A stretch of 64,000 nt of DNA from Effrenium voratum (taxonomy: Eukaryota; Sar; Dinophyceae; Suessiales; Symbiodiniaceae): NCBI GenBank assembly GCA_963377175.1, contig CAUJNA010000486.1:43501-107500 (forward strand). Direction: 5' to 3'. The translations under genes and the position numbers were made by a program. The notes under the pieces were generated by a model. The model was not told the DNA's origin, searched no databases, and saw only the letters and a list, made by a program, of their open reading frames with translations. Shown here piece by piece: positions 9,246-49,309 of the stretch (position 1 is the stretch's first letter; the number at the start of each line of letters is the position of its first letter).

Positions 9246-9262
9246 TTGCTACACTTGGATTT

Positions 9263-13928: not shown

Positions 13929-14690
13929 TTAGACGTGATCCAAAAACAGCACGAACGACAAGGACGAGCCCCTCAGTCGGACGACTTGCCCTTCCAGATC
14001 GGTCAGCCGGAAGCGCATGTGTCTCAGGGCGCAGCGCAGGTAGACCTCGTTGTATGCCATCATTCTCACGAATTCAAAGACCTGCTGCCCGCCGGAGACG
14101 AAGCTCGGGCCGAGCATGTGGTCGACGCTGAAGGGCTTGGATGGCGAGGCGGCCGGCGAGGTGGGGTAGTCCGCAGCGTCTGGGAACTGCTGCTGCAGCT
14201 CCAGATCGTTCAGAGTGAGGCGGTTGCCGTCGTAGGCTACGCTCAGGCTGTTCGTGGTCTCGCTGTAGGTGGCAGTAGCGAAGTTGGAGCTGATCCAGGC
14301 GGCCAACCGTGCGCCCGTGTAGGCGCCTTCCGGCAGTAACGCCCAGTTCAGAGTCGCAAGCGCGGCGTCGACCCAGTAGAGGTAGCGGCCCCGGTCTGTT
14401 GAGAGAAAGCTGTCCGCGATTCTGATCTTGTAGACGGCCAGCCGGGCGTCGCTCTGCAGGTGCAGGGACTCTCCCGGGTCGACCTCGAAGTCGCTGTCCG
14501 AGCCGGCTACCCTCTTGCGGCTGTCCACGTAGATCGTGGTCATTCTTTTCTTAAGGAAGCCACCAGTTCGACGGACGGGCTGGTGGACGGCTGCGACGGA
14601 GGTGCAGCAGGAGATGTTCTCACACCTCGCGTTGATCAGCGTGGAGCTGGCGAGCAGCTTCTGGCCCAGGAAGCTGAGCGCCGCTCCCAT
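13929..14690 (-). CDS. penton-like minor capsid protein candidate
   Basis: The frame has two possible ATGs, at 14690 (MGAALSFLGQKLLASSTLIN) and 14543 (MTTIYVDSRKRVAGSDSDFE). The later one follows TTAAGAAAAGA, the A-rich box seen elsewhere, and may be the true start. The body has alternating beta-strand-like segments and the pattern LLPEGAYTGARLAAWISSNF then SLSVAYDGNRLTLNDLEL. A leading GxYT plus a domain-swapped beta pattern is common in minor capsid or penton proteins of polinton-like viruses. It is fused in frame to the upstream ATPase only because of indels. The related copy at 28742-29094 keeps the two genes in different, overlapping frames. Confidence 0.45.
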   Translation of the reverse strand: MGAALSFLGQKLLASSTLINARCENISCCTSVAAVHQPVRRTGGFLKKRMTTIYVDSRKRVAGSDSDFEVDPGESLHLQSDARLAVYKIRIADSFLSTDRGRYLYWVDAALATLNWALLPEGAYTGARLAAWISSNFATATYSETTNSLSVAYDGNRLTLNDLELQQQFPDAADYPTSPAASPSKPFSVDHMLGPSFVSGGQQVFEFVRMMAYNEVYLRCALRHMRFRLTDLEGQVVRLRGSSLSFVLFLDHV

Positions 14691-15417
14691 CGGCTTCTGT
14701 TTCCAGTGCGAAACGCTCTTCGAAGCGCGTGTAGTTTGATTCTTCGGCTTTAGGTAATAGACGAAGAGGAAGCTATAGGGGTCCCTGGTCGCCTGCTCGT
14801 AGATCCTGTGCAGCTTGTCCTTCGGCAGCAGGGTGCTGAGCTCTTCGATGACGGCGTCCAGCTCGTGCTGGTTGCGCAGCCTCCAGCAGCAGAGAAATTG
14901 CATGTTCACCCGCACGGCTGCGCTGATGAGTCTCAGCTTCTGGGAGCTCACCCAGGTGCTGATTTGCATGTGCCTGCCTCGAATGAAGAGCGTATCCAGG
15001 GCGCCGTGAGGCTTGTGGAGCTGCGGGCTATCTGCGTAGTCGTCCAGGATAATCAGCACCTGGTACAGTTTCTTCATCTCCAACTTCTTGGATGTCTCGG
15101 TGATCTTGCGCTGTCTCTGGATGATGCCCCGCAGCGCTGCCTCGTCCCACTCGTCGTAGTAAGCCTGCTCCCGTTCGGTATTCACCCCCAGGTCCTGCTC
15201 GATGTACTTCTTGACGGGGATCCAGCTGTCGTCGATGTTCACGCTGGGACTGAATATATAGATTTCTCAAAGACTCCGCGGTATTGCTCCAGGCCACGGT
15301 TTTGCCAGACTTGCTGGGGCCGAGGAAAATGCCTGTGCATGGAACCTGGGGCACCACGGGGTCCGAGGGCTGTTTGCTAGTGTATTCTCTTGTGGGAAAG
15401 AGCTTGATCTTCCCCAT
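14620..15417 (-). pseudogene. A32-type DNA packaging ATPase, with deletion and frameshift
   Basis: The gene starts at ATG 15417 (MGKIKLFPTREYTSKQPSDP) and reaches Walker A, IFLGPSKSGKT. Just after it about 15 bases are missing and a further base is lost from an A run near 15265, compared with the copy at 28008-28812. The frame resumes as NIDDSWIPVKKYIEQDLGVN, with Walker B-like YQVLIILDDYADSP and a downstream ISTWVSSQKLRLIS segment. This layout fits the FtsK/HerA-like packaging ATPases of Polintons and nucleocytoplasmic DNA viruses. The native stop, judged from the sister copy, is at 14620, overlapping the next gene. The leader GGCAAAAGAACGA before the ATG is shared with the sister copy. Confidence 0.7.
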
Positions 15418-17895: not shown

Positions 17896-17923
17896 ATGGG
17901 GAAGATCAAGCTTTTCCCCACGC
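17896..17923 (+). pseudogene. 5' fragment of A32-type packaging ATPase, copy 2 (split by retroelement)
   Basis: ATGGGGAAGATCAAGCTTTT encodes MGKIKLFPT, identical to the first residues of the ATPase at 15417. The leader GTAACGCAAAAGGACGA also resembles the leader of that copy. The frame stops making sense at 17924, where the retroelement begins. The rest of the gene resumes at 28008. Confidence 0.75.
17910..17923 (+). repeat. target site duplication, left copy
   Basis: GCTTTTCCCCACGC (14 bp) is present here and again at 28008-28021. It is part of the ATPase reading frame on both sides (LFPT), so it marks the insertion of the intervening 10-kb element. Confidence 0.85.
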
Positions 17924-18125
17924 TCAACACACGCTTTGGCTTCTTAGCCTGGAGCAATGACGCCGGCTATTAGCGAACGCCACTGCCCCTCTTGTTTGAC
18001 ATTAACATCGATGTCTATTGCATCGGCTTGAGGGTCGAAAGTTCGCGCAAACGGGAAAGAACAGGGGGAACACCAAGCACAAACCAGAAAAAGGGGCCCC
18101 CAAAAAACCACAACGCGCGAACCCC

Positions 18126-21100
18126 TCACCTCCGTGACTGAATGAGACGGATATAGTTCCTCCTCTGGGTCGAGGGATCAAGATCAAGGTCTTCCGGTTC
18201 CGGAATTGGCTTGATCGTGGGCAAATCCAAAACGAGGCTCGTGGTTGGCTTGCCTCTTTGTACCGAAAGGTATCTGTACAGTGTCTCATGCACCAAATGC
18301 GCTTTCGGAAAAATTGGGCGGATGTTGAGACCACCTGCTTTGAAGGACAGCCCAAAGTGCTTGGTACTGCATCTGATGCAAGCGGCATCCGAAGGAAAAA
18401 GTGGCTGCATCAAAGTTTTGCTCAAGGTATCCAAGGCATTTTTGAAGGTCCACACTTCCGCGCCCAATGTTCTGGAGGGCATGCAATGTATCACGTGAAT
18501 TCCAGGTGTCAAATGGCAATTCATGTTTTTCGGATCTGCTACCGGGATGGCCATCCCGGTTTCCAAGCGAAAACTGACCATAAGCTCTATCCAGAGAACC
18601 GTCTGGTCCGGTGAGGCTGAAATCGGCCATTTGAGATCAGCCAACCATGACATGAGCTTTGCGTTAAAAGTCGTTCCCCAAGGTGATGCAGTCCTCCACT
18701 CACAAGTGGTGGGGTGCGTGAAGTAAGGATTTACCTCATGCACTGGGCCCACGGTAACAGCGACCGGCTCTCCCGTGAGTTCAGAGTCTTTGTTTTTGGC
18801 CGGTTGGCGGTTGATCCAATGCACGTATTCTCGCAATGCACATGCAATTGCGCTGTAGAGTTTCGGGAGGTTTTCCCTGTCCTCAGCTGCTTGCTTGTGT
18901 TGTTTTCGCCAGAGCTGCTGCAAGTCCTGTGAATCAAAACCTGCCGCCCTCTTTGCCGCGAGATCTGCGCAGTGGTTGCCAAAAAGGTGGTACGCATGTT
19001 CGTCCGTACCAAAATTGCTTGTGTGGCTTTTCACCTTCATGAGGCGGATTTTCCTGCTCTTGAGTGGCCAAGCATGCAGCGCACTATGTACACGAATTAT
19101 GATATCATAATTTGACTTAGATGCCCACCGGCAAAGCTGGTCGTCCTGCAAAAGTTTCTCTGTGACTTCTATCGCGTACTGGCAATCTGAGACAATCACA
19201 AGATTCTTTGAGAGGAGCAATGCATGTGCAATGGCAAAAAGTTCTGCTCGTGGCACAGTCTGCCTGTTGGGCACCCTTCCTGTAATGCAGACTTCAAAGT
19301 GCGTTGTGGGTGAACTCTGGATGGCATGTGTGACCTGGCGGCTTTCCTCCCCTCTGATGGGGTCTAGCACAACGGCGAACCCTGCGCAAGCAAGGTGTGG
19401 GTGACAGGAAGCGTACGCGCTTCCGTCTGTATATACAAAGGCGACATCTTCATCACCCTTCGGAAGTGCCGGAATTTCAAAGCTATCTGTGGGAATCGGC
19501 AAACACACTTCTGGTTTGAAAGCCCATGCCGAGTTGGCCTGACTACCGGCAAGCTGTGCTAGCAAAGGGTGTTCACGCCGAATTTGCTCGGTTGCAATGC
19601 AAGTGCATAAACGATGAGCCAACGTGTCTGGTTGTTTGCAAAGTTGACAGTTTATGGAAATATCTTGCCAGTGAGCAACACGGTGGTTGGTAGGGATTCC
19701 TCCTGCCAAGTATGTGCGGACCAAACGCGCATCCGCATCTGCAATGGAATTCAAAGCTCTACATGTGGCACGCAAGTCCAAATTTCCAAGGTTCTCCAAA
19801 CCCTGCCTTTGCCGGAGGTGTTTGGTAACCCCGTGTTCCCATGCATGTGTAACGCATTGTTCCAGCTCATTGGGGCAGCTGCGGAAGAAGTCGAGTTCCT
19901 TTCCAACTGGTGAAATGATTTTGCCATTTTCATGAACTGTGATGTTGACAAAGTTCAAGTAAGCTCCCAGAACCCGTGCCGGCCCATATGTGGCTTTGGT
20001 GTTCTCCGCACCCGTTTTAACTAGGTTCCAAAATTGTCCAAAACGTGACGGGTATGTACCAACCGCCCTTCGTGCCATGCGGCACGCACGCAAAATCAAG
20101 GCTAGTTTGGGGTCCCAAAGACCACAACCATAACCAAGCAATGCAACTTTCGGGCACAAGCCCCGGTGTGGTTTTGCGATGATGGAAGCTACCTCTCTGC
20201 GGAGTTGGGCAATGGATCTTTCACCGACATAATGCACTTCGCTGCCGTAAAAGGCAGCTGCAAAGGGTCCTCCTTTCACCGCCTCCATCCTTGCCACCTG
20301 TGGCAGTGGCAGGGAAGCAATGATCTTTGCTCTGCGGGCTCCTTCAACCAAGCGATATTTGAATTCCCCATGTTTATTGGATTTTTTGTAGTTCATGGCA
20401 CAACCAAGATTCACGGCGGAGTTTTTATTACCAAAGTGTGGTTGTCTTTCCAACAGACGGGCTGGTTTGGTACTCCATGACCAGGATTTGTCCTGGTCGA
20501 CTTTGAAACCCCATTGAACAAAGAAGTCAAGCGCAATGTCGGTCGCCATGTGAATGTCGGCCTCATCTTGTGCAATTATCTCTATGTTATCAATGTAGAT
20601 CAGAGGTTGAGCCGGGACATCTCTGGTGATGGCCCAATGGAGTTGGGCACCAATCATCACTGCAGCAACCACACTGAGTGGGTCGCCTTCCGGCACGCCA
20701 CATGTTGCCCTGCGGGGCAAGCTATAGCTGTCCTGCACGACCACCGAACGTTTCAAGGTGCCTAGCAATGTGAGCCAGCTCTCTACCAGACACTCCGGAA
20801 GTCCGAAACGAATCATGAGTTGTCGTAAAAAGGGGCGGGGTATTCCATTAAAGAATTTCTGCAAATCTGTGACACATCCATGAAGGGGATCTCCCTTTGT
20901 AAGAGCCTGCTCAATTAAGTGTTGGGAATGATACCACAGAATGCTACCATCTCTCTTCGGCAAACCCCCGACTATCGAAGGTGGCAGTTTGAAGGACAAA
21001 TGCATGAGGACCTCCCTTGCGATGCACTTCATTGACAGCCTGTACAAGAGACCGAGGATGTTGATGGGCCTACCATCTTTGATCATATTCGGCTCTGATG

Positions 21101-22337
21101 TTTTCCCCGGGAGCACCACACGTGCCCACTGGAAGGCCTGCGGCCATTCCTGCTGAGTTTCAATGCAATGATTGAAAATTTGCACAAAGCACGCCAGCGC
21201 CACGTCGCCTAATGCTTTTAGCTCAAACAAACGCCAGCCATCTGGGCCTACGGCTGTGTGCGGATCTGTGTCTTTGATTACCTCCTTGAGGCCATCAAGT
21301 GTAAGGCAGCAAGCTGGGGCGATCGTCCAGTCTGGTGGGACATCTAAGTCTGCCAAGTCGCCTCCCGGAGGAGCCTCACTTTCCCAGAACTGGGCCCAAT
21401 ATTCAAAGAAAGCCTTCTGGACCGCCTCCGGATGGTGGTGCCATGTTGTGGCTCGGATTTGAATAACATTTTCCTGGTTATCTGCGGTGGATACTTGGCC
21501 CCGTTGGCGGTTAACCCAGGAGCAATGCTTGGGCAGGCACACATGTGCGAAGTCAAGGTCTTGGGCTGCAATTTGGAAAGTGGCGGGTCCTTTAGACTTG
21601 CTTCTAATGCGTCTGGCTTCTAGCATAATTTCCTCTTTCGCGGTAGCTAGCCAAGGGTTGGTGGGTTTTTTGGACACCTTATGTGCCAGTTGGTTTCCTT
21701 TGTTTTTCCATGAGTGATGGAGGTCATTGTTCCATCTTTCCTGATTTGTTTTCCTGTCAATTTTGGCAAGTTCCTGGCTGCGGGCCTTGGTGATCCCAAG
21801 GAGTTGGTTTACCAAATCATCCGTCGGGTATTCAAGGAAATCGAGCTCAGCCCAGGCAAAGAAATCGGGCGAAAACCCCTTCGCCTGACTTACTGCTCGC
21901 CAATCATCCTGGACACATGCCTGGATTGTGGCGCCATGTTTGGCAAGCATACGAGAAATGCTTTCCAACCTACGGATCTGGCGCGTGCACTGCTTGGATA
22001 TCACGCTCGTGCCTCCGTGCGGGGGTTGGTAATCCCCCGGGCGGCCCAATTTTCCCTCCTTTTTTATTGGCAGAAGCTTATATACTGGCGGTCTGCCCCT
22101 CCCAAGTTGGCCCGGTTTGAGGCCAGGCTGTTCCTCCTGAATCAGACATGAGTTCATAGCTGATTCGGCTGCACTGGACCAAGCTTCCAGGCTCACGTTG
22201 CCCGGCGTTTCGGTGTCTAAATCTTGACTGCACATCACATCGACGAAAAATTCATCGTGCGCATCTGGCTTAATGATCTCTAGCTGCTCCGAAGAGAGTG
22301 GTTTAGGGATCTTCCAAACCCTTATATTAATGCACGG
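18126..22337 (-). CDS. reverse transcriptase - RNase H (ORF2, C-terminal part)
   Basis: Residue numbers count from codon 22238. The RT spans about 320-640: motif A has VTDLQKFFNGIPR (Asp458), motif B is GVPEGDPLS (514-522), and motif C is LIYIDNIEIIA, where the usual YxDD is YIDN. A Cys/His cluster, CQLCKQPDTLAHRLCTC, lies at 864-880. RNase H spans 930-1100 with all four acidic residues: YTDGSA (D938), VPRAEL (E999), VSDCQYA (D1018) and GNHCADLAA (D1092). The frame is open back to about 22337 with no obvious ATG. It lies one frame off the endonuclease stop at 22327, so the two were probably one ORF separated by a frameshift. The frame itself is intact over 1370 codons. Confidence 0.85.
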   Translation of the reverse strand, partial: PCINIRVWKIPKPLSSEQLEIIKPDAHDEFFVDVMCSQDLDTETPGNVSLEAWSSAAESAMNSCLIQEEQPGLKPGQLGRGRPPVYKLLPIKKEGKLGRPGDYQPPHGGTSVISKQCTRQIRRLESISRMLAKHGATIQACVQDDWRAVSQAKGFSPDFFAWAELDFLEYPTDDLVNQLLGITKARSQELAKIDRKTNQERWNNDLHHSWKNKGNQLAHKVSKKPTNPWLATAKEEIMLEARRIRSKSKGPATFQIAAQDLDFAHVCLPKHCSWVNRQRGQVSTADNQENVIQIRATTWHHHPEAVQKAFFEYWAQFWESEAPPGGDLADLDVPPDWTIAPACCLTLDGLKEVIKDTDPHTAVGPDGWRLFELKALGDVALACFVQIFNHCIETQQEWPQAFQWARVVLPGKTSEPNMIKDGRPINILGLLYRLSMKCIAREVLMHLSFKLPPSIVGGLPKRDGSILWYHSQHLIEQALTKGDPLHGCVTDLQKFFNGIPRPFLRQLMIRFGLPECLVESWLTLLGTLKRSVVVQDSYSLPRRATCGVPEGDPLSVVAAVMIGAQLHWAITRDVPAQPLIYIDNIEIIAQDEADIHMATDIALDFFVQWGFKVDQDKSWSWSTKPARLLERQPHFGNKNSAVNLGCAMNYKKSNKHGEFKYRLVEGARRAKIIASLPLPQVARMEAVKGGPFAAAFYGSEVHYVGERSIAQLRREVASIIAKPHRGLCPKVALLGYGCGLWDPKLALILRACRMARRAVGTYPSRFGQFWNLVKTGAENTKATYGPARVLGAYLNFVNITVHENGKIISPVGKELDFFRSCPNELEQCVTHAWEHGVTKHLRQRQGLENLGNLDLRATCRALNSIADADARLVRTYLAGGIPTNHRVAHWQDISINCQLCKQPDTLAHRLCTCIATEQIRREHPLLAQLAGSQANSAWAFKPEVCLPIPTDSFEIPALPKGDEDVAFVYTDGSAYASCHPHLACAGFAVVLDPIRGEESRQVTHAIQSSPTTHFEVCITGRVPNRQTVPRAELFAIAHALLLSKNLVIVSDCQYAIEVTEKLLQDDQLCRWASKSNYDIIIRVHSALHAWPLKSRKIRLMKVKSHTSNFGTDEHAYHLFGNHCADLAAKRAAGFDSQDLQQLWRKQHKQAAEDRENLPKLYSAIACALREYVHWINRQPAKNKDSELTGEPVAVTVGPVHEVNPYFTHPTTCEWRTASPWGTTFNAKLMSWLADLKWPISASPDQTVLWIELMVSFRLETGMAIPVADPKNMNCHLTPGIHVIHCMPSRTLGAEVWTFKNALDTLSKTLMQPLFPSDAACIRCSTKHFGLSFKAGGLNIRPIFPKAHLVHETLYRYLSVQRGKPTTSLVLDLPTIKPIPEPEDLDLDPSTQRRNYIRLIQSRR

Positions 22338-23892
22338 ATATTTTTGTCACCGAACCAGCAAGCTCCGGAGAGAAGAAGGTGGTATCATTTCTGGTCTCTT
22401 CTTTGTATGTGGGTTCCGTCGGAGTTCCTAAGACATCCTCGGCAAAAGTGTGGGCTTCTGACCAACCTTTCGCCTGCAGCGTAGGCCAAATCACCGTCTC
22501 CTGGGGGGCTTGATTGAGGTCACCTGCAATTATCGCAGGTCCACCCCATTGCGACACACGTTCCAAAGCGCGTTGCAGTAGGGAATCTGAAGCATCTTTG
22601 CGGTGTATGTACCAAGATTCATCCTTGGCATGCAAGTAAAGGGAAATTATGAGCACATAAGCCTCACCCAATTTCACTATGGTCTCAAGGTATCTGGCAC
22701 TGTCCCACTCGTCCAGTGCGCACTGGCACTGTGGCTGTCTTGATGCGGAAATCGTCAAACATCCCACACCCCCAAATAGGGGCTGGGTATTGCGTGAGGG
22801 ATCCGCACGACCCGTTGCACATGGCGCACCTGCAAAGAAGTTCAAATTCAACTTGTCCGCTGATTTCTTGGTGTGTTGTATGCAATGTAGATTTGCTGAT
22901 GTTTCCGCAATGCTGATAGCTCCTGGAAATTGTTTCCACAAGGTGAAAATGTCATCTATCGAGGTTCTCAATTTGGTAACATTAACCGTGGTGTGGTGAA
23001 AAAATTCCACTTGCTCAGCCGGTCCTGGATTTGATGCTTCACCCAACCTGCAGCATTTGTCCCACGGTATCCATGCACTGATCTGTGTGATCCGATTGTC
23101 AATGCAAATGAGCATAATATCCGTCTGCAAATCTCCAAGGGACTTCCCATCACAAACAAGGGCATGGTCGACAGTTTCCGTATTGAAGTGAAGGTCATGT
23201 CCAACAAGGGGACCCAGCAAAGGGGCAGCAAGCAACATCTTCCAAACCCACCCGGATCCTTCCTCAATGGAGTGCCCATGTCCGACGAGAGATCGTGGGA
23301 CACCATCTGAAAAGATCTCGTCAATCATCCACATGGAAAAGCAAAATGCAAAAAAGGAATCCATCGAAATACGAGCACCTGCTCCGTGTAAAAGGTTGTG
23401 GAAAATAACATTGTCCCGTTCTGAAAAATGATCTTTCCATCCGAGATAAAACTGATTGGTGAATGCCCGGACCACACCATGTACATCCGTGAACATTGGA
23501 GCACCCGCTCCATATAAAAAGCCGACATCGTTCACACTGCCGCGGATGTGCAAACCAAGCTTTTTCAATGAATCTCCCTTTTTGAGGGGCGGTTTGAAAC
23601 TCAAAAGGTGGGAAGCCTGCAAGCGTCTTTTCTCACCAAGTTTCATGACACCTGAGTAATGTGTGACACGTGAATGCCCCGAAGAGCCACCGCCTGACGA
23701 AGGTGGTAGATGCTGGAAATGCCCTGGATCCTGGTGCCAGTGGCAAATGTCGTCTTGTCCGTCAAATAATTCTTGTAAAACGAGGCCACTATTTGGCCCG
23801 TGGTTGGGCGAAAAGCACGGCTCCCCGATGAAGTCGCGCCGCCACAAGGTAAAATCAAGACAAGGGCAGAAACCCCATTGCTCCTGTCTCAT
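22327..23892 (-). CDS. AP-type endonuclease (EEP fold), ORF2 N-terminal part
   Basis: The open frame extends further upstream, but its 5' part overlaps ORF1. The first ATG after the ORF1 stop is at 23892 (MRQEQWGFCPCLDFTLWRRD). The C-terminal 300 residues carry the endonuclease/exonuclease/phosphatase pattern: RLGEASNPGP linker, AISIAETSA (metal-binding Glu), GGVGCLTIS, LIISLYLHAKD and AIIAGDLNQAP (GDxN). The final SDH-type motif expected next is missing because the frame ends at KISVH, where it should pass into the RT frame. It nicks target DNA for target-primed reverse transcription. The function of the N-terminal 200 residues is unknown. Confidence 0.75.
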   Translation of the reverse strand: MRQEQWGFCPCLDFTLWRRDFIGEPCFSPNHGPNSGLVLQELFDGQDDICHWHQDPGHFQHLPPSSGGGSSGHSRVTHYSGVMKLGEKRRLQASHLLSFKPPLKKGDSLKKLGLHIRGSVNDVGFLYGAGAPMFTDVHGVVRAFTNQFYLGWKDHFSERDNVIFHNLLHGAGARISMDSFFAFCFSMWMIDEIFSDGVPRSLVGHGHSIEEGSGWVWKMLLAAPLLGPLVGHDLHFNTETVDHALVCDGKSLGDLQTDIMLICIDNRITQISAWIPWDKCCRLGEASNPGPAEQVEFFHHTTVNVTKLRTSIDDIFTLWKQFPGAISIAETSANLHCIQHTKKSADKLNLNFFAGAPCATGRADPSRNTQPLFGGVGCLTISASRQPQCQCALDEWDSARYLETIVKLGEAYVLIISLYLHAKDESWYIHRKDASDSLLQRALERVSQWGGPAIIAGDLNQAPQETVIWPTLQAKGWSEAHTFAEDVLGTPTEPTYKEETRNDTTFFSPELAGSVTKISVH

Positions 23893-24004
23893 GTATTGTC
23901 CCGCTTGTGATTGTGCCGCTCTGAAAATTCTATCTGGATCTTGTCTCCCCTGATCCGGAGGATACACCCTGCAAAATCCAGAAGTGAACAAACTCCGCAG
24001 CTCA

Positions 24005-27000
24005 TCACATGTCGTCCTCCATGTCGTCATTGGAAGGAATTTTGGCCCGTTTCGCGGACTGCTGGTGGTCCGATGCCTGGCCTTGTGGTGGGAATCCCTT
24101 GAGCAGATTCTCCATGCTGGCCATGAGGTTCTGTGTTTGATTAAGCATAGCTCGGTCCAACGTTTTGGCGAAGGATTCTTTGACCTCTTTGATGTCTTTC
24201 TGGATCTGAGTTGTCTTGCGATCCTGCACATCTGTTTTTTCCTGGAGCTGACGCACCACGGCCTTGAGTTCACTGACCTCCGTCTGAACCGTAGCAATCT
24301 GCTTCTGTTGCTGTTGCAAATTCTTGTCCTGGGCAACGTTGGCATTCTGCAAAGACTTGGCCCATGGATCCTCTTGTTGCAGGATGTCTTTGCCTTTACC
24401 CTGTCCTTTGCCTGACCCAGAGGCGCGGATCGGATTCGGCGCTGATGTAAAAGATGGAAGCAACTGAAAAAGGACATTCTTACCATTGATTGAATATTGG
24501 ACTTCCGTGAGCTTCTCCTCCGTGCAAATCTTCCAATTCTGTCCCTGCTTACGCAAGGGCTTGCCTTTGATGCCGGCGTCCTTGAGAAAAGTGCCGATTG
24601 CTTCCAGGTCTGCCGAACCTGGTGCACCAAGCAATAACCAGTGAAAATTGGCAGTGATTTCCTCCGGCGTTGTTCGACCTGGGTAAAACAGAGGAAACGC
24701 CTTCTTAAATTCATCATTCTGCAAACGAATACCTCGTCCCGTGCGCCCGCGGATAAGCCCATGGTGTTGCTGAATCTTGGAAATTGCATCCGACGGCGGC
24801 ATGTCCCGGGGAATCCACAAGATTCTGAAATCAAATTTGTTCTGCATTGGCGATTTGTCATTGCTCTGTTTGTCCTCAACGTAGAAAGGGGGAAAGGTGA
24901 GGCCACTTTTTGCCAGCGGTTCCTTGGCGAGGGCGGATTTGACCTTAATCCAAAGTCTGAACGAAAAAGCCAAATCTGGTTGCGTGGGCTTGTTGTTCTT
25001 CCTCCACGAACGGCCCCACACCTCGTAAATCCCTGCTGTATCGAGAGCAAATGTCTCGATGACCAATTTCGCAGGTCCTTTAACCAGCTCGTTCCAAATT
25101 GCTTGCTTTTCCTGCCATTCGTCACGAAAGGCCGTGATTGCCAGAGTTTTGGTGTCCTCCAAAGGTATCTGCAAATCTTTGACCTTCCCTGGTTCGACAT
25201 GCTTCTTTCCGAACTGGAGCAACCATCCCTGCAAGAGCAGTCCGTTACCTGACTGATCACAAGCTGCAAATTCCACCTCACGGCATGGTACATTTGTCTC
25301 TGTTGGTTTGGAGAGCACCAGGAGGCCGAGTTCCTGAGGAACCAAGGGGCTCTTGCCTTTGAGAATCGTCGCGTAATCACATGGTGGCGTGGTAAAAACT
25401 CCATGGCCTGAAATGCAAAAAGTTCCTCCAATTGTCGCATGTTCACCTGAGGCAAGCAGAAAACTCCCCGTTGCAATGGTGAGGTTCTCCAAGGAAGGCT
25501 TCTGATGGATTCGCTGGGCTCGGCTTTGCTTCTTTTCGTGGCCCTCGTCCTTGGAACCGGAACCAAGTTTCCCACCACCTCTGTTTCTTGACGTGATGTG
25601 AAGTGTATCATGATTTCGTAAACGCAATTGGGCCAAAGATTGATCCAGGTCCAGCTGACGCACCCCGATATGGACCTTGTACTGCAAAGGATCGTCCTGA
25701 CAAATGTCAGAGATTGCCTGGCCCAGGGTAGTATCTGTGGTAACGCAAATGGAGCGAACTGGCCCCATGCATCCTGCCAGAAAAAGCTGGATGGTTTTAC
25801 GTGAGTCCTGAAAAGTTTGCAAGTCAAGCACTCCTCCCACCTGAACCAAATCTGCAACTGAATCCTCTGGCACCGGAAATTCTGCCGCAAGCATTCCAAG
25901 ATTCCATACTCTGCAAATGATCTGAGTTCCTGACTGATCTGCAATCTGCCGCTGCCTACTCGGTTCGTGTGCTTTCCCTGATGATTCAGGTTCCTGGCAG
26001 ACCGTGAAAGGGATCGTGGGACTAATTTCCTCCTCAAGTGATGTACCAAAGTCATCCTCGATCTCAAGTATGCCACCTCCTTCGATGAGGAATTGTTCAC
26101 AAACCTCTTGCCCCCGAAATCTGAAACGTCTTTCTCCAAACCACTGGACATCTCCCCACTCCAGAAATTGGCGAATGGTGAGTCCCAACGGGCAACGGAC
26201 CAATCGTCTGACTTCATGATATTGAATGCGAACCACCGCCTCAAATTGAGCGCGCGGCAGGGTGGGATCATCTGCATCGAATCCGATGATGCATCTGTCA
26301 TCCCTGAACTGAATATCGCCTGTCGCTTTGTGTCTGCATGCCTGAAAGGCTCTCACGCACTGATCAAAGTCCTGAAAATCTCCAATTGTCTGCAAGTCTT
26401 CATTCTCAATTACCACCCAAAAGGCAGCCATCGCATGAATTTGCATGATTGCATTGCCTGTTTCTGCGCATCCCTGCTTCAAGTTGACAGGTGAGTTGAT
26501 TCCATTTGTGAACCCCATGGCGGTGAGGATCTCCGGATGCGAAAACAGTCTCGGGCGGTTGTCCTGTCCCAAGCGAAGGTTTCCCAGAATTTTGGCTGAA
26601 CCCGTCTGGACCTCATGGAAAAGGTGCTGCTGTGAGTAACTTCGCATGATAGTAGTTGCAGGCATGGATCCCTCACCTGACACAAGTCTCAGCTCCAATG
26701 CCTGCTCTTGGCTGCGGACATATCTGGGTGATCTTCTTGGGCATGCATACAATTGCAGCTCATCATCTCGTAAGTGTACCTGGCAGGCAAGTTGCTGAGG
26801 AATCTGATCAAACCACATGCCCTCACTGCCCAGATTTTTGCATATCCCATGGAAGGCTCGCATCACCTCTTTCTTCTTCTGGCCGTCCCACAAAACTCGC
26901 ATGTTCTTCTTGATTGCAACTCCAATGAACCTGGAACGATCTGCCGGGACCACTGCCTTCGTCGAAATGACATCTGCGAAAATCAATTCAAAATGCTGAT

Positions 27001-27838
27001 CCGCAAGCTCCGCAAAAAGTGTTGATCTCCACGCCCAGTCTGTCCAAACAGGTGGCACATTTTCCAAAAGCAGGAAATTTGCTCCGATGAGGTTTGATTG
27101 TTGAACAGTAAATCGAAACATCTCTCTCGTCTCCTCTGACCATCCTTGCTGCAAACCTGCCGAGGAGAATGTGACGCAAGGCCAGGAAATCGTCACGATG
27201 TCTGTATTCAAAATTGATGCGCCCATCCAAGGGGATGATTGCAAGACATCACCCACCAGGACGCATGGCCGTTGCAGATGTACCGCCTGCAATGGTTGGT
27301 TGACCAGAGTCAACCCGTGGGATTGCGAGTATGATACCGCCGCTTCCCGCGAAATGTCCATGGCCAACGGGCACGTGAAAGGGTAACCGTGTTTGGTCAT
27401 GAATCGTGCCGCATGGGCCCAGCCTCCAATACCTCCGCAAAAGGGGCTGAAAATCACATGGTTGTTTTGGTTCACTCTGTTGCAGTTTCTTTTGATGAAA
27501 ATCGCGGATTCATTCGTGAGCCAAAGAACCAGGTCTCCTGATTGTTGTTCCGGTGTGGTTTTGTGGTTTCCACGCAAACAAAAAATTGCATTTCTGTCAT
27601 ATCCAACTCGAGCCACCATGCAGTGCAAATCCAAGGAAAAAGGAATATGCATCTTGATGCCCCGCATATCATCAGACTGTAAACTGCATGTAAGGAAATG
27701 TCCATCCTCTGAAAGGTCTGAAATATGAAAATCATCCAATTCATGTATCGCCGACCACAGTCGGGGATCCGGTTCCAGCTTCATCTGCTTTGCTGGCCTC
27801 ATCATCTGGTCAGCGGGAAGGGTTCCAGCCGAATTCAT
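24005..27838 (-). CDS. retroelement ORF1: DNA cytosine-5 methyltransferase + ubiquitin-like + coiled coil
   Basis: The 1277-residue frame starts at ATG 27838 and is intact. Residues about 127-465 hold a complete C5 methyltransferase: motif I IFSPFCGGIGGWAHAA, motif IV ISWPCVTFSSAG (catalytic Cys221), motif VI LLLENVP, motif VIII ADRSRFIGVAI, and a C-terminal motif region RLFSHPEILTAMGF...ETGNAIMQIHAMAAF. Residues 681-756 resemble ubiquitin: TIQLFLAG, VRSICVTTDTTLGQA, VRQLDLDQSLAQL, NHDTLHITSRNRGGG. The last 120 residues form a Gln/Lys/Glu-rich coiled coil like ORF1 proteins of LINEs, ending MEDDM. It probably methylates CpG in DNA; a link to silencing or protecting its own copies is hypothesis. 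Confidence 0.85.
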   Translation of the reverse strand: MNSAGTLPADQMMRPAKQMKLEPDPRLWSAIHELDDFHISDLSEDGHFLTCSLQSDDMRGIKMHIPFSLDLHCMVARVGYDRNAIFCLRGNHKTTPEQQSGDLVLWLTNESAIFIKRNCNRVNQNNHVIFSPFCGGIGGWAHAARFMTKHGYPFTCPLAMDISREAAVSYSQSHGLTLVNQPLQAVHLQRPCVLVGDVLQSSPWMGASILNTDIVTISWPCVTFSSAGLQQGWSEETREMFRFTVQQSNLIGANFLLLENVPPVWTDWAWRSTLFAELADQHFELIFADVISTKAVVPADRSRFIGVAIKKNMRVLWDGQKKKEVMRAFHGICKNLGSEGMWFDQIPQQLACQVHLRDDELQLYACPRRSPRYVRSQEQALELRLVSGEGSMPATTIMRSYSQQHLFHEVQTGSAKILGNLRLGQDNRPRLFSHPEILTAMGFTNGINSPVNLKQGCAETGNAIMQIHAMAAFWVVIENEDLQTIGDFQDFDQCVRAFQACRHKATGDIQFRDDRCIIGFDADDPTLPRAQFEAVVRIQYHEVRRLVRCPLGLTIRQFLEWGDVQWFGERRFRFRGQEVCEQFLIEGGGILEIEDDFGTSLEEEISPTIPFTVCQEPESSGKAHEPSRQRQIADQSGTQIICRVWNLGMLAAEFPVPEDSVADLVQVGGVLDLQTFQDSRKTIQLFLAGCMGPVRSICVTTDTTLGQAISDICQDDPLQYKVHIGVRQLDLDQSLAQLRLRNHDTLHITSRNRGGGKLGSGSKDEGHEKKQSRAQRIHQKPSLENLTIATGSFLLASGEHATIGGTFCISGHGVFTTPPCDYATILKGKSPLVPQELGLLVLSKPTETNVPCREVEFAACDQSGNGLLLQGWLLQFGKKHVEPGKVKDLQIPLEDTKTLAITAFRDEWQEKQAIWNELVKGPAKLVIETFALDTAGIYEVWGRSWRKNNKPTQPDLAFSFRLWIKVKSALAKEPLAKSGLTFPPFYVEDKQSNDKSPMQNKFDFRILWIPRDMPPSDAISKIQQHHGLIRGRTGRGIRLQNDEFKKAFPLFYPGRTTPEEITANFHWLLLGAPGSADLEAIGTFLKDAGIKGKPLRKQGQNWKICTEEKLTEVQYSINGKNVLFQLLPSFTSAPNPIRASGSGKGQGKGKDILQQEDPWAKSLQNANVAQDKNLQQQQKQIATVQTEVSELKAVVRQLQEKTDVQDRKTTQIQKDIKEVKESFAKTLDRAMLNQTQNLMASMENLLKGFPPQGQASDHQQSAKRAKIPSNDDMEDDM

Positions 27839-27990
27839 GGCGTCCGGGGCACGCCGCCTAGTGTGTCTCGCAAGCTATGCTGTTGAAAGGTTTTGCATGG
27901 GACAACGCAAATGGTAAATGACAAAAGGGTCACTGCCAGTGCTCTGTTGGTCACACGCCATGCCATGCTAACGGCCCAGCCGCGGGAAGG

Positions 27991-28007
27991 CCTGAGCCAC
28001 TTGAGCC
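27991..28007 (-). other. spliced-leader relics at retroelement 5' end
   Basis: On the minus strand, immediately after the target site duplication, the sequence is GGCTCAAGTGGCTCAGG. The first eight bases equal the 3' end of the dinoflagellate spliced leader (which ends TTTTGGCTCAAG). TGGCTCAGG looks like a second, older, mutated leader end. This is what reverse transcription of a trans-spliced mRNA would leave, truncated at the leader. Confidence 0.65.
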
Positions 28008-28021
28008 GCTTTTCCCCACGC
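28008..28021 (+). repeat. target site duplication, right copy
   Basis: GCTTTTCCCCACGC repeats the 14 bases at 17910-17923. The base after it resumes the ATPase frame (CTGAGTACACCAGC, encoding the PEYTS stretch seen in the sister copy). Confidence 0.85.
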
Positions 28022-28812
28022 CTGAGTACACCAGCAAGCAAGCCTCGGACCCCGTGGTGCCCCTGGTGCCATGCACGGGCATCTTCCTCGGGCCCAGCAA
28101 GTCGGGCAAGACCGTGGCGCTCATCAGCCTCATCCTGGAGCAGTACAAGGGCGTGTTTGAGCGGATCTACGTTTTCAGCCCAAGCGTCAACATCGATGAT
28201 GGCTGGATCCCCGTCAAGAAGTACATCGAGCAGGACCTGGGGGTGAACACGGAGCGTGAGCAGGCTTACTGGGACGAGTGGGATGAGTCCGCCTTGCGGC
28301 GCATCATCCAGCAGCAGCGCAAGATCACGGAAGCGTCCAAGAAGTTGGAAATGAAGAAACTGTACCAGGTGCTTGTAGTCATCGACGACTTTGCTGACAC
28401 GCCGCAACTCCACAAGCCGCACGGCGCCCTTGACACGCTCTTCATCCGAGGCCGTCACATGCAGATCAGCACCTGGGTGAGCTCGCAGAAGCTGAGGCTC
28501 ATCAGCGCAGCCGTGCGGGTCAACATGCAATTCCTCTGCTGCTGGAGGCTGCGCAACCAGCACGAGCTGGACGCCGTCATCGAGGAGCTGAGCGCCCTGC
28601 TGCCGAAGGAGCAGCTGTACCGGCTGTATGAGCAGGCGACCCGAGAACCTTACAGCTTCCTCTTCGTGTACTACCTGAAGCCGAAGAACGAAATGTTCTA
28701 CAAGCGCTTCGAAGAGCGTTTCGCGCTTGAAAAAGACGCCGATGGGAGCGGCGCTCAGCTTCCTGGGCCAGAAGCTGTTCGCCAGCTCCACGCTGATCAA
28801 CGCGAAGTGTGA
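28008..28812 (+). pseudogene. A32-type packaging ATPase, copy 2, 3' part
   Basis: Apart from the retroelement insertion, this ATPase is intact. It has Walker A IFLGPSKSGKT, the segment LILEQYKGVFERIYVFSPSV that copy 1 has lost, Walker B-like YQVLVVIDDFADTP, and ISTWVSSQKLRLISAAVRVN, and ends at 28812. It is thus the reference for the damage in copy 1 (14620-15417). Packaging ATPases of this family pump viral genomes into preformed capsids. The 3' end overlaps the penton-like gene by about 70 bases, a compact viral arrangement. Loss of function here is due to the 10-kb insertion. Confidence 0.8.
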
Positions 28813-29094
28813 GAACATCTCCTGCTGCACCTCCGTCGCAGCCGTCCAGCCGCCCGTCGTCCGCCGGACGGGCGGCTTCCTAAAGAAAAGGATGACGACG
28901 ATCTACGTGGACAGCCGCAAGAGGGTGGCCGGCTCAGACAGCGACTTTGAGGTCGACCTAGGAGAGTCGCTGCACTTGCAGAGCGACGCCCGGCTGGCCG
29001 TCTACAAGATCCGCTTGGCCGACAGCTTTTTGTCCACGGACCGCGGCCGCTACCTCTACTGGGTCGACGCCGCGCTCGGCACGCGACCCCCGTG
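28742..29094 (+). pseudogene. penton-like minor capsid protein, copy 2, truncated
   Basis: Starting at ATG 28742 (MGAALSFLGQKLFASSTLIN) or 28892 (MTTIYVDSRKRVAGSDSDFE), this frame is about 90 percent identical by eye to the first 115 codons of the gene at 14690-13929. It breaks off at VDAALGTRPP near 29076, where copy 1 continues LNWALLPEG. The truncation marks the right end of this viral fragment. Confidence 0.6.
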
Positions 29095-34986: not shown

Positions 34987-36188
34987 GACATTGGTCGTTG
35001 CGTGCGGATTTGAGGAATTCCCCCCGCGGCCCGCAAATGCTTTCAATGGGGCTGCCCTGATCAACATCCACAGAACCAGGAAATCCCAAGTTTACATTTG
35101 TGCAGATTGCGGCGGTTCGTGTCGTTGGCAGGCTCGGTAGGGACCCCCCATGAACGGATGGTTGCCTTTCCTTGTTGGAGGTCGGTCATTCCTGCTGGTC
35201 GACATTGATTGAGACGTGCCGTTGATCGTTGTGAGTGATTTTGCGCTTGCCCCCAGCCTGCTTTTGAAAGAGCAAGACCTGCCCGTCTGCCGGGGAGAGG
35301 GAGGGCAAACTCTGATGTCTTTGCAATCATTGGGGCCCTTGCTGCTGCAGGCACAAGTGCATTCTATGAATGTTCTCTTTGATCTCCCTGGCGGTGTTCT
35401 TGCTCGATGTTTTGCCCGTTTTGCTGCCATTCCATCCCGTTCTGTTGTTCATTTTTCTCCGTACCTGTTCATATCTGCCTGATTTGGCGTGAGTGTTTAG
35501 CGCAAAACTATCAAACAGTCGAGGGGAACCCGCAAATATTGAAGAGCCTGCTGTTCCAGTCGCCTGCCTTTTGAAGAGCAAGACCTACCCTTCTGCCATG
35601 GTCGTTGCTGCTGCAGACACAATGCAATCCGAAGGTTAAATTTTGTTCCGACAGCACGAGCATGTAAAGTGTGCACAATGTATTTCTGCTGCCGGGTGAC
35701 GTTGAGACGTGCCGTTTGACGTTTTGTGTGGTTTTGATTTCCCCCGCGGAAATGCTTTCAGTGGGGCTGCCCTGATCACATCCACAGAACCTCAACATAT
35801 TTGACGCCACTCTCCCCCCTCATCAACCTTGTCGGGGTTCCTGGGAACTCAGTGGTTTTGCTCAGCGTGGAGCCCCACAAAAGGATTGTTGAGCTGAACC
35901 ACGCATCCCCCGCTTTGCGTCCATGGGCAGTGGCAGTGCTCCTGCTGGAAATTTTGGTTTTGTTTCGGGTTTGGTACCCTTGTATTCCTTACTTTCCCAG
36001 TGCTCGGCTTTCGCACCAAGTACCCATGCTTCTTTGTGATCAGTTGTGAATGGTTAGTGTTTTGCAAAAACATGAACCAGTGGGAAGGAACCTGCTAGTG
36101 ATCGATTTTCCCACCAATTGCCGATGCGTGTTTGGTTTGTTGCGATTGTTTGTCCTTCCCAGCATTCCCTCATGCACCTCCCGCGCAG
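34987..36188. other. probable intron with internal repeats, copy A
   Basis: The segment between SAM-like and NTPase exons has two related units, each ending in GGGGCTGCCCTGATCA(A)CATCC (35046 and 35764) and each containing a CAAGACCTxCCC(G/T)TCTGCC stretch (35275 and 35580). It ends in CTCCCGCGCAG, a good 3' splice site directly before the NTPase exon. The same structure occurs at 46190-47312. Confidence 0.5.
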
Positions 36189-38063
36189 GTTGAGCTCCCT
36201 CGTTTTAACGCCGCAGATCTCTCGGACTTTGAAGACCGCTTTTTGAACAGCCGAATCAACAACAATATTGAGAGGCCGTTTGAGGAAAGAGAGGCGGTTG
36301 TGAAGAGAGTTTTAGAGGAGATAGAGCTGATCCAGAGTTTGGAGACCAACAAGCCGACGGTCTTGGCCTTGTGGAGCCCACGGGGCACCGGCAAGACATC
36401 GCTCATCCGTCATTTGGCGAAGGTCTCGAACTTTTCCGAAAGTCGACAGTGCGGGCGGCTCTTGGTTGTTGATGCGTTGACGATTCCGCCAACGCTGCTG
36501 CGCAAAGATCCTGACTTGCTGGTTTCTGCCATCATCTTGTGGCACCTTTGCCAGATCTTCGATGGCTACTCTGTGGAGGTGAGCCAAGGGCCACCCATTG
36601 GTTTCCAGACGACGAGGTTCAGCGATTTGGTCAACATATTGGAATCCAGCCGATCATCGCCAGCTGTCAACAGCTTTGAGGCTTGGGTTCGCTTACGTTG
36701 CAGAATCAAGGAAGCTGTTTTCGAGCAGTGGCTTCTGGTGACGGCTGCAGCCTTCAATGCAACACCAGCCTGCCCTTGCTTACTGTTCCTCGATCAGGCA
36801 GAGCTGCTTGTGAACAGCACGGTCGATGGACTGAGTAAAATGGGTGGACAGAAATCGGCTTTCACCGAACTATTGAGCCGATTCCCGCAGAGGATGGGCA
36901 TGTTTTCCGCAGGCACAGTCAATGTCCTGCAAGATAGGCCATCCGAGGAGTACACCATGCTGGAGGTCCAGGAAGCTCCAGCTCTAGCGCCATTGTCACT
37001 GCAAGCTGCCAGACGAGCCATGAAAGGCTGGAGGGGTACGCAGTACCAGGAGGAGGAATTCAACAAAATTCACCTCTTCTCTGCCGGGGTACCCCGGCTT
37101 TTGGAGGCGGCTTTCCAGACCAGGGGTGAGTTGGCATCAACTGCTCAGGTTGCACTCAACGCCATGTCGAATGAGTTCGAAAGCTCGTACGCGGATGCAG
37201 CGCCTTATTTCGCTGAGCCCAAAGTGGCTTTGTCGTTGGTTCTTTGCTCGGCGGTTCGATGGCCTGCAGAAGGCCACCAGCTTGTGCCCGGAACCTCAGT
37301 GAGGTGGTCAGACATCTTCAGGGCCGGAGCAGCATTTCCAAACAACAAGTCCGTACTGGTTCCACGGCTGTGGTGGTGTAAGGATACCAATATCAAAGAC
37401 GCCCTCCAAAACGACTTGAAACAGCTGAACATTTCGTTGGAAGGGCTCCTGCCAGACTTGCTGGAACTGTTGAAAGGGCAGGAAAGGGGCGCTACAGAGA
37501 GGGGGCCGCTGTGGGAAGGCCTGGTGGCCAATTCCCTGGCTGTTCGCTTCCGCCTTCACTGCGTAGCAAGAAATCTCAGTCCTGAAGTCACCTGGGTCCC
37601 GTTTTCGGAGATCTACCCTACGGAGGATCCACATTTGCGAGCTGTTTTGGAGCCGTTCGAAGTTTGCTGGAGTGATGGTGTGGAATATCCAAGCGGCCAA
37701 GGCAATGAAGCAACTGTCATGAGTGACGTTGGGAAGGCCATCAAGTCCAACCGGAATTTTGCAACGGCTCACCACGACCTTTTGATCCCTGTGAGACGCA
37801 AGGCAACTGGTAAGCTCGAGTTCATTGCTGCGCAATGTCGTTATGGAAAGAAAAAGGATGCAGGCGGCCTGAAGTTGCAGGACAAGGCAAAGAAGGACAA
37901 CTTTGAGGACATGCAAAATGTGTTGCTGCAGATTTGCAGTGAGTCTGAAGGCTGGCGGTCCTTTACAAACGAGACATGGGCCAGACGTCAGGAGGAGAAG
38001 AAATACTCTCTCATGAGTTGCGAGACTATCATTGCGCAGCTGGACGTGCTGAAACTTTTGTGA
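36189..38063 (+). CDS. P-loop NTPase with C-terminal REase-fold domain (Crinkler/RHS-like), copy A
   Basis: Residues are counted from codon 36132, but there is no ATG and the true exon probably starts after CCGCGCAG at 36188. Walker A is SPRGTGKTS (82-90), Walker B CPCLLFLDQAE (214-224), and a sensor-like strand FSAGTVNVL lies at 258-266. The C-terminal 180 residues have a PD-(D/E)xK-like order: WEGLVANSLA (Glu462), AHHDLLIPV (Asp549), LEFIAAQCRYGKK (Gln568, Arg570). An NTPase plus REase-fold pair is the layout of Crinkler effectors and trypanosome retrotransposon hot spot proteins. The usual Lys of the last motif is Arg, so nuclease activity is uncertain. It ends at 38063; the paralogue is at 47313-49091. 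Confidence 0.65.
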   Translation, partial: VELPRFNAADLSDFEDRFLNSRINNNIERPFEEREAVVKRVLEEIELIQSLETNKPTVLALWSPRGTGKTSLIRHLAKVSNFSESRQCGRLLVVDALTIPPTLLRKDPDLLVSAIILWHLCQIFDGYSVEVSQGPPIGFQTTRFSDLVNILESSRSSPAVNSFEAWVRLRCRIKEAVFEQWLLVTAAAFNATPACPCLLFLDQAELLVNSTVDGLSKMGGQKSAFTELLSRFPQRMGMFSAGTVNVLQDRPSEEYTMLEVQEAPALAPLSLQAARRAMKGWRGTQYQEEEFNKIHLFSAGVPRLLEAAFQTRGELASTAQVALNAMSNEFESSYADAAPYFAEPKVALSLVLCSAVRWPAEGHQLVPGTSVRWSDIFRAGAAFPNNKSVLVPRLWWCKDTNIKDALQNDLKQLNISLEGLLPDLLELLKGQERGATERGPLWEGLVANSLAVRFRLHCVARNLSPEVTWVPFSEIYPTEDPHLRAVLEPFEVCWSDGVEYPSGQGNEATVMSDVGKAIKSNRNFATAHHDLLIPVRRKATGKLEFIAAQCRYGKKKDAGGLKLQDKAKKDNFEDMQNVLLQICSESEGWRSFTNETWARRQEEKKYSLMSCETIIAQLDVLKLL

Positions 38064-38255
38064 GTGTAAAAAAAAACGCGCTAGCAGGCTGGAGCACATG
38101 TTCCATGGGTGTCAGGCTTGCATCCACAAATTGAATGGCCGTTTTGGGCGGGGTCCAGGGATCGCTCTAAGGTCGAGATTCGCAAAATCGTGTTGGGCTA
38201 AAAGTTCTCTCCACAAGCTAAGGCATGTTGCTTCCGTCAGGTCTGCTCAAGAAAG

Positions 38256-45989: not shown

Positions 45990-46189
45990 CGCTGGCAGGA
46001 CTGCCGCGAGGAGGTGGAGGGCTTCTGTCGAACTGGGTCGAAGCCGTACTGCTGGATGCTGGGTTTGAAGCAGACGACATCACCGAAGTCACCCCCATTC
46101 TGCTGAAGCAGAAGGTGATCGGAGCGGCCCTACTGCAGCTGACACTGGAAGAGCTGATGCAGGATGGCGTTCCGCGTGGCCTGCCCTGA
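45990..46189 (+). CDS. SAM-like domain exon, copy B
   Basis: The frame reads LSNWVEAVLLDAGFEADDIT, EVTPILLKQKVIGAALLQLT, LEELMQDGVPRG. It aligns with the exon at 34660-34986 and keeps the GxxLLxLTxExMxxDGxxRG signature of the SAM fold. The ORF stops at 46189 in the sequence CTGATCAACATCC, where copy A has intron, so the exon probably ends a few bases earlier. Confidence 0.45.
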
Positions 46190-49091: not shown

Positions 49092-49309
49092 GTGTACAAA
49101 AATCGCGCTAGCAGGTGGGAGCAGGGCGGACTTCAGGTCACAAGAGGCTTCACATGTTCCATGGGTGTCAGGCTTGCATCCACAAACTGAATGGCCGTTT
49201 TGGGCGGGGTCCAGGGATCGCTCTAAGGTCGAGATTCGCAAAATCGTGTTTGGGCTAAAACTTCTCTCCACAAGCTAAGGCATGTTGCTTCCGTCAAGTC
49301 TGCTCAAGA

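Follow-up and report, generated by a model that had tools for sequence, protein, structure and literature searches.

The interrupted ATPase gene

An ATPase gene in the window (the whole stretch of DNA analysed, 64,000 nt) is split after codon 9 by an insert on the minus strand (Table 1). The gene begins with an ATG at 17896 and resumes in frame on the far side of the insert at 28009 (LFPTPEYTSKQ...), and its stop codon ends at 28812. The 14-mer GCTTTTCCCCACGC directly precedes the insert and directly follows it, and no third copy occurs within the 64,000-nt window at up to two mismatches. An earlier note on this DNA had read the locus as a LINE-type retroelement with precise ends, flanked by a 14-bp target-site duplication (TSD) in a viral-type packaging ATPase gene. 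This reading is borne out: the ends hold to the base (17924-28007), both copies of the duplication were located, and the right part of the split gene matches the Pfam family Pox_A32 (2.5e-11; 43.9 bits against a cut-off of 22.8), an A32 ATPase domain by which the gene is predicted to encode a viral-type packaging ATPase (A32 type).

The alignment to the paralogue that the note had proposed was made with each flank compared separately. The minus-strand paralogue (ATG at 15417) reads MGKIKLFPTREYTSKQ unbroken across the insertion point and is 86% identical to 28024-29076; protein P0130 likewise has an uninterrupted MGKIKLFPTPEYTSKQASD. The 5' end of the LINE is defined by the TSD together with full-length copies from other lineages (C217, C256), which stop at this site too.

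Table 1. Features of the interrupted ATPase gene, its LINE insert and the empty-site paralogue
Feature	Position	Strand	Remark
Paralogous ATPase, no interruption at the site	14359..15417	-	Empty-site comparison; degraded otherwise
Interrupted ATPase, start (MGKIKLFPT)	17896..17923	+	Ends in left TSD copy
TSD copy beside LINE 3' end	17910..17923	+	GCTTTTCCCCACGC
Full-length DNMT-LINE, lineage A	17924..28007	-	10,084 bp, antisense to ATPase
3' untranslated region	17924..18125	-	Without poly-A
Reverse transcriptase / RNase H reading frame	18126..22346	-	RVT_1 and RNase_H above Pfam cut-offs
RT catalytic motif YIDN	20586..20597	-	Usual form YxDD
AP-type endonuclease domain	22330..23085	-	Predicted fold
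ORF1 frame	24005..27874	-	Cytosine-5 DNA methyltransferase domain at residues 146-328
5' untranslated region	27839..28007	-	To first ATG of ORF1
TSD copy beside LINE 5' end	28008..28021	+
Interrupted ATPase, remainder	28009..28812	+	Pox_A32 domain

Architecture of the LINE

Three Pfam families are matched in the insert, namely RVT_1 (9.5e-10), RNase_H (4.5e-12) and DNA_methylase (1.7e-9). The DNA methyltransferase (DNMT) domain, whose match to TIGR00675 is below the cut-off of that model, lies in ORF1 upstream of the reverse transcriptase (RT) frame both in the window LINE and in another copy, C217. The endonuclease scores 16.7 bits with Pfam in the window LINE, under the cut-off of 24.5, and is not listed by Pfam in C12 and C217; its predicted fold is of the APE type. 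Endonuclease and RT lie in different frames in the window LINE and share a single frame in C12 and C217. In this LINE family the RT naturally carries YxDN for YxDD, a change that in yeast Ty1 abolishes transposition. As plain ratios, the observed/expected CG value is 0.70 in the LINE versus 0.87 in the remainder of the window.

By its domains and ends the window LINE resembles SymbioLINE-Dnmt as described by de Mendoza et al. (2018, PMC5890265). Common to both are a DNMT in an ORF1 that precedes the frame for endonuclease, RT and RNase H, TSDs without poly-A, and CG depletion. The same source already places TSDs and conserved UTR ends on record, and the earlier note's claim that exact ends are rarely definable for dinoflagellate LINEs was thus overstated.

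Occupied and empty sites

The 14-mer GCTTTTCCCCACGC occurs 390 times in the 1.156-Gb genome, versus 10 times for a backwards control. A sample was taken of the first 100 of the 390 listed places (98 fetched plus the two of the window); since only exact matches were counted, inserts inside the 14-mer would be missed. Intact ATPase sites account for 70 of the 100 places, sites with small changes for four and unrelated sequence for six, the rest being LINE junctions: eight left and ten right junctions that, with the pair of the window, represent 13 insertions. Insertions therefore stand at 13 of the 87 sampled ATPase sites, against 74 that are empty, and none of the 70 intact sites has a LINE protein match within 400 bp.

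The inserts are relatives of the DNMT-LINE, belong to at least three lineages and are all antisense to the ATPase. Eleven of the 12 besides that of the window match LINE proteins, and the twelfth shares the 5' end of another. Duplications measure 14-17 bp in the seven insertions for which both junctions were read; one copy, C247, is without a TSD at its 5' junction.

Genome-wide distribution of three lineages

Searches with 3' ends extend this pattern to the whole genome. Among the matches listed, copies abut the ATPase target in 15 of 15 cases for lineage A (queried with the terminal 200 nt of the window LINE), 22 of 25 for lineage B and 26 of 28 for lineage C, or 63 of 68 altogether. The numbers of matches are lower bounds (at least 15, 25 and 28), the 63 of 68 probably include duplicates (the C252 pair, the C3021 pair, C2448/C1583, C1833/C1490 and C2667/C1940), and all three queries were taken from copies at the site, which would leave lineages living elsewhere unseen. 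Two copies, one with a small deletion (L138) and one in a tandem LINE (L155), were scored at the target by eye. Judged by the 3' flank, five copies are off target. One of these (L144, C308) has only 10 nt of the target at its 3' flank and abuts the ATPase at its opposite end (L044); in L164 the 3' flank differs from the target; and in L148, L173 and L175 the matches stop short of the 3' end.

The earlier note had made its 3' boundary depend on other copies not running past 17924. Beyond each of the 15 lineage A 3' ends the target, exact or in variant form, begins within 0-4 nt, in four cases by way of a tandem LINE, and thus none of the 15 matches extends past the equivalent of 17924. Some copies stand in tandem at the site; L124/L125 and L127/L128, considered as targets outside the ATPase, were rejected as such because they are tandem LINE arrays.

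The lineages are strongly diverged. Their RTs are 53-56% identical between A and B, 50-52% between A and C and 48-52% between B and C, and in an RT tree of 18 rows the copies at the site form, with P0001 and P0002, a group of eight with support of 100/100. Points of 5' truncation vary among copies, and matches to the endonuclease region are retained in copies of all three lineages. The place of insertion is not accidental: several diverged lineages have inserted at a single position of this gene, which the earlier note had missed.

Probable site-specific insertion and its alternatives

Because nearly all checked copies of three lineages sit at one spot, the LINE appears to be site-specific, with the integrated virus as its landing pad. 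The insert in the window is very probably one member of a DNMT-LINE clade that is specific for codons 5-9 of a dispersed, multi-copy, viral-type packaging ATPase gene, as suggested by the single place and orientation, the TSDs of 14-17 bp, the diverged lineages and the many empty sites. From the geometry of the junctions, the AP-type endonuclease would recognise the ATPase sequence and nick its coding strand after ...CCCCACGC; the LINE RNA would be reverse-transcribed from its 3' end, primed at the nick (target-primed reverse transcription), and the other strand cut 14-17 nt upstream. The product would be an antisense LINE with a flanking duplication, and because this duplication re-creates the target, further LINEs could insert beside the first. 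Every insertion disrupts the ATPase frame close to its start, and by analogy with rDNA for R1 and R2 the multi-copy provirus gene may offer a niche of dispensable targets.

Alternatively, the LINE may enter free or replicating viral genomes and spread with the virus to other places; the association would then reflect the virus instead of the endonuclease. Elsewhere, retrotransposons have been recorded inside endogenous virophages and inside a polinton-like provirus (PMC8547959, PMC10120064). However, this explanation leaves the one place, the one orientation and the 14-17 bp TSDs of separate lineages unaccounted for, some 10 kb of LINE would presumably have to fit into a small viral genome, and we consider it unlikely. 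It is quite unlikely, too, that something else, for example a viral nuclease, often breaks the DNA at this site and that LINEs merely exploit the breaks. The site is indeed common to several lineages, and two of the 98 loci (L062 and L084) bear a 2-base deletion exactly at the inferred nick, but a left boundary this sharp and an antisense orientation throughout suggest that nicking and reverse transcription are coupled, and matches to the endonuclease region persist in copies of lineages A, B and C.

One old insertion in a single provirus, multiplied by segmental duplication or gene conversion, may explain some pairs: the flanks of L124/L125, L131/L132 and L160/L161 are identical or nearly so, those of the window and C3128 agree at 120 of 120 bases, and a different ATPase truncation junction has clearly spread by descent through 13 loci. 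As the sole cause, this process is refuted and very improbable. Identical 45-nt left ATPase flanks bear lineages A, B and C, with RTs only about 50% identical, the 5' truncation points differ, and in a set of five copies whose 200-nt 3' ends are identical the ATPase flanks agree at 83-98 of 120 bases except between the window and C3128. Chance insertion of a non-specific LINE, with the 14-bp repeat as nothing more than a usual TSD, fits the single locus taken alone but is refuted by the 63 of 68 listed copies that abut the site and by the occupation of 13 of the 87 sampled ATPase sites at one position, and has practically no chance of being correct.

The earlier note had also dated the insertion after viral integration. 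What the junctions establish goes no further than that the ATPase gene preceded the LINE. Insertion into an already integrated viral copy is the likelier reading because the genome has the 14-mer 390 times. On the virus side, a polinton-like virus ('Dino group') would be expected to have capsid genes beside the ATPase, and Pfam found no capsid family in 27 frames of the window that lie outside the LINE, ATPase frames included (scanned as 29 entries, two frames having been entered for the ATPase copies); no ATPase relatives were found in the viral contigs scanned, and viral and bacterial sequence collections gave no match.

Comparison with known systems

In the SymbioLINE-Dnmt family survey (PMC5890265), transposable elements are placed mostly in introns and intergenic DNA, and no site specificity is described in the passages drawn on here; in contrast, the present lineages lie almost only in one viral gene. 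LINEs of the R1 and Tx1 clades are APE-type and target-specific, and the homes listed for site-specific LINEs in the consulted part of PMC4640811 are rRNA, tRNA and spliced-leader genes, telomeres, microsatellites and transposons. The present LINE resembles the R1 and Tx1 elements in its APE endonuclease and its single fixed site in a repeated sequence, and differs in that its target is a protein-coding viral gene, outside the kinds given there. It also differs in carrying a DNMT and an RNase H.

R2 and other LINEs with a restriction-like endonuclease are likewise site-specific in a multi-copy gene and leave 5'-truncated copies, as here, but their endonuclease is of another type and the target of R2 is 28S rDNA. 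In Cafeteria, endogenous virophages contain nested Ngaro retrotransposons, some types of which prefer proviruses (Hackl et al. 2021, PMC8547959, in part). The nesting in proviruses is similar, whereas Ngaro elements use a tyrosine recombinase and, in the same passages, occupy several kinds of place (intergenic DNA, genes and TIRs) and not one spot.

In the literature searched, mostly papers open without subscription and with preprints left aside, an endogenous viral gene is unreported as a LINE target. It would widen the known range of targets by one kind, which has hundreds of natural sites in a single genome, and site-specific LINEs are a main route to studying target choice by retrotransposons. 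The system opens to test how a variable protein-coding site is read by an AP-type endonuclease, whether a DNMT cargo matters to a site-specific element, and whether proviruses in protists are held back by retrotransposons. It is possible, though doubtful, that an old LINE clade at home in the packaging gene curbs the provirus through its insertions, and perhaps its DNMT, in a way that propagates itself, which would make a three-level nested parasitism of host, virus and LINE with a fixed molecular address. More proviral copies would then provide more targets, and more packaging genes would be broken.

Further breaks in ATPase genes

The 13 loci mentioned above have a further ATPase break in common, at the equivalent of about 28261-28266. 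It was rejected as a second insertion hot spot; related sequence continues past the break, which has therefore spread by descent. Proteins P0133 and P0027 are leads at the protein level only, and the decision on the site rested on DNA. The extensions of P0074 and P0037 bear no resemblance to the window LINE. In P0133 the ATPase gene is broken at the same codon, by an insert with no significant likeness to the end of the window LINE (6% of the background was equally good). In P0027 a LINE 5' end stands in register before LFPT, with at least 14 of 54 nt differing at the best position in the window and 15 at the next best.

A LINE within a packaging ATPase gene

The A32-type packaging ATPase gene of the window is split after codon 9 by a LINE lying between two copies of the 14-mer GCTTTTCCCCACGC. 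An earlier note had proposed exactly such an insert between 14-bp repeats of the ATPase frame, and this is borne out; the gene's identity is likewise confirmed, its right-hand part matching Pox_A32 in Pfam at 43.9 bits (cut-off 22.8). In the minus-strand paralogue, which the note had offered for comparison, the ATPase is uninterrupted at the insertion place. The GC content is 0.505 in the insert versus 0.576 in the remaining window. No capsid gene was found beside the ATPase in the window frames scanned with Pfam; in the dinoflagellate Polarella glacialis, PMC10120064 counts 2,535 capsid genes belonging to endogenous DNA viruses. Self-comparison also revealed two long tandem-repeat arrays (3695-6049 and 9261-10391). 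A stretch of about 3.6 kb is directly duplicated (35049-38760 / 46178-49763) in pieces at 82-96% identity; its AAA / restriction-helicase matches in Pfam are weak and below cut-off.

Features of the split ATPase gene and its LINE (window positions)
Feature	Position	Strand	Detail
ATPase paralogue	ATG 15417	minus	unbroken across equivalent site
ATPase start, MGKIKLFPT	17896, left of insert	plus	reading frame
14-mer, left copy	17910-17923		exact
Insert between 14-mers	17924-28007	minus	10,084 bp
RT + RNase H frame	18126-22346	minus	Pfam
RT catalytic motif	20586-20597	minus	[YF]xDN type
ORF1 with C5 cytosine methyltransferase domain	24005-27874	minus	Pfam 1.7e-9
14-mer, right copy	28008-28021		exact
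ATPase continuation, LFPTPEYTSKQ	28009 to stop ending 28812	plus	reading frame

Element architecture

Read on the minus strand, the element consists of a 5' untranslated stretch, ORF1, an endonuclease region and the RT + RNase H frame. The ORF1 methyltransferase matches TIGR00675 at 6.1e-12, below that model's cut-off. By eye, what may be a ubiquitin-like stretch, at about residues 690-770 of ORF1 (24008-27874, minus), separates the methyltransferase from the C-terminal part. The endonuclease region of the window copy scores under the Pfam cut-off, and in the copies on contigs C12 and C217 of the same genome an endonuclease is not among the listed Pfam matches. The predicted structure of the window endonuclease (mean pLDDT 77.4, pTM 0.78) is most similar to exonuclease III (1ako, E 1.1e-9), followed by AP endonucleases and relatives and the L1 endonuclease (2v0s, 5.8e-7). 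Endonuclease and RT occupy separate frames in the window copy and a single open frame in the C12 and C217 copies; the window copy is therefore probably dead, or misassembled at the frame change. CG observed/expected is 0.70 in the LINE versus 0.87 in the remaining window, and this depletion and the absence of poly-A are among the features that it shares with SymbioLINE-Dnmt, as described in PMC5890265.

The RT catalytic motif is of the [YF]xDN type instead of YxDD, as in five other site copies of the RT tree and 11 of 12 homologous proteins (P0001-P0011), the sole exception being P0012 with FADD. In Ty1, according to PMC2148107, the same change of the second Asp to Asn preserved in vitro activity and abolished transposition, a defect partially rescued by RNase H mutations. 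RNase H is present in the [YF]xDN LINEs found here.

Occupancy of the site across the genome

The genome searched (1,155,904,702 bases, 3699 contigs; window at C486:43501-107500) contains 390 occurrences of the 14-mer versus 10 of its backwards control. The first 100 listed of these 390 places, the window's 2 and 98 others, were classified by sequence comparison and reading by eye. The 98 comprise 70 intact ATPase sites, three loci with a small indel beside the site (L053, L062, L084), one with an altered left flank (L080), 8 left and 10 right insert junctions, and 6 unrelated places. The 18 junctions represent 12 insertions (C12, C217, C218, C247, C256, C308, C334, C346, C436, C654, C718, C789), so that with the window there are 13 insertions versus 74 empty sites in this first 100 of 390. 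At the otherwise empty sites L062 and L084, two bases are deleted exactly where the nick is inferred, which could be a scar of abortive insertion or chance.

The 12 further inserts were read whole or in part, and 11 match LINE proteins, antisense to the ATPase beside the junction. No LINE protein match was found in the 10 kb read of the C654 insert, which has its 5' end in common with C436. The C334 insert contains an inverted piece and that of C308 a gap. The copies on C217 (9.84 kb, with open reading in both frames) and C256 (10.4 kb) are full-length; those on C12, C218, C247 and C789 are shorter. None of the 70 empty sites has a LINE protein match within 400 bp; at L008, an empty site of which 3 kb were read, such a match starts about 540 bp upstream. 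Among the 120 ATPase protein relatives listed of 1128, P0027 has a LINE-like start in register with the window junction, and a left-junction search recovered P0133, broken at the same codon, plus three unbroken proteins. Protein-match edges also delimit about 17 kb of other sequence within a lineage-C LINE (approximately C718:137255-154255, between L112 and L113).

Boundaries and proposed mechanism

The insert begins immediately past the 14-mer at each of the 8 left junctions and at the window's own, and its first base is never the target's C; these junctions were found via the exact 14-mer, so inserts inside it escape detection. Both junctions were read for seven insertions, and here the duplication measures at most 14 bp in two (window, C718), 15 bp in four (C12, C217, C256, C789) and 17 bp in one (C218). 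On C247 a duplication is absent, and the truncated LINE is joined directly at the predicted nick. From the fixed left edge, nearly fixed right edge, single orientation, shortened copies and short duplications, we infer target-primed reverse transcription that starts at a specific nick in the ATPase strand after CCCCACGC. Variant targets such as GCGTAGGAAACAGC or GCGTGGGAAAGAGC (LINE sense strand) show that target recognition tolerates change. The duplication would re-create the target, which would explain tandem LINE arrays.

Target specificity of three lineages

The 3' ends of lineages A (the window's LINE), B (the C217 copy) and C (the C256 copy) were located genome-wide. The terminal 200 nt of lineage A occur at at least 15 places; all 15 ends lead within 0-4 nt into the target or a variant of it, none running past the boundary proposed at 17924, and 11 continue directly into the ATPase start. 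At L127/L128 a short LINE-B-like fragment, another target copy and the ATPase start follow; at L124/L125 a lineage-C-like LINE follows, and farther along these contigs a lineage-C 3' end adjoins the ATPase (L162/L163).

Lineage B yielded at least 25 matches, 22 adjoining the ATPase start (3 from the 14-mer census, 18 + 1 from 3'-flank comparisons), including L138, with a small deletion and counted by eye. L144 (C308) has just 10 nt of target at its 3' flank, its other end (L044) adjoining the ATPase; L148 and L173 end short of the 3' end and are not beside an ATPase start. Lineage C yielded at least 29 matches at 28 places, 26 adjoining the target (3 from the census, 23 from 3'-flank comparison), including L155, where the 5' end of a further lineage-C element comes next in tandem. 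L164 has a different flank, and L175 ends short of the 3' end. In sum, 63 of 68 copies lie at the target, the match counts being lower bounds. Several pairs of copies, identical or near-identical in their flanks, may represent duplicates or haplotypes, and independent events would then be fewer than 63.

One 45-nt ATPase flank carries A (window, L030), B (L003) and C (L037, L081, L090), and RT-region identity is 53-56% for A-B, 50-52% for A-C and 48-52% for B-C. In an RT tree of 18 rows, the copies of the three lineages form one group with P0001 and P0002 (support 100/100), outside which fall P0012 and a further nine LINE proteins (P0003-P0011). The names that three of these nine bear, Symbiodinium or Polarella, suggest a dinoflagellate host. 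Five lineage-A copies are identical over the 3' 200 nt; over the 120 nt of flank they match one another at 83-98 positions, except for the window and C3128, which are equal at 120/120. Diverged lineages on equal flanks and identical A ends on differing flanks suggest a recent movement of lineage A and a site specificity that either predates the lineage split or was acquired repeatedly. C436, with 41% (ORF1) and 47% (RT) identity to the window copy, may be a fourth lineage. A search of titles and abstract openings, its coverage lying mostly outside subscription literature, found no report of a LINE that specifically targets a viral gene.

A shared truncation is seen in 13 ATPase copies (L008, L029, L034, L041, L046, L063, L069, L077, L078, L085, L089, L092, L096), which stop at nearly one junction: GAGC or GAGCAGGCT, then mostly GTTTCTGGCC. 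The junctions of L008, L029 and L092 lead into TTTAGGG telomere-like repeats.
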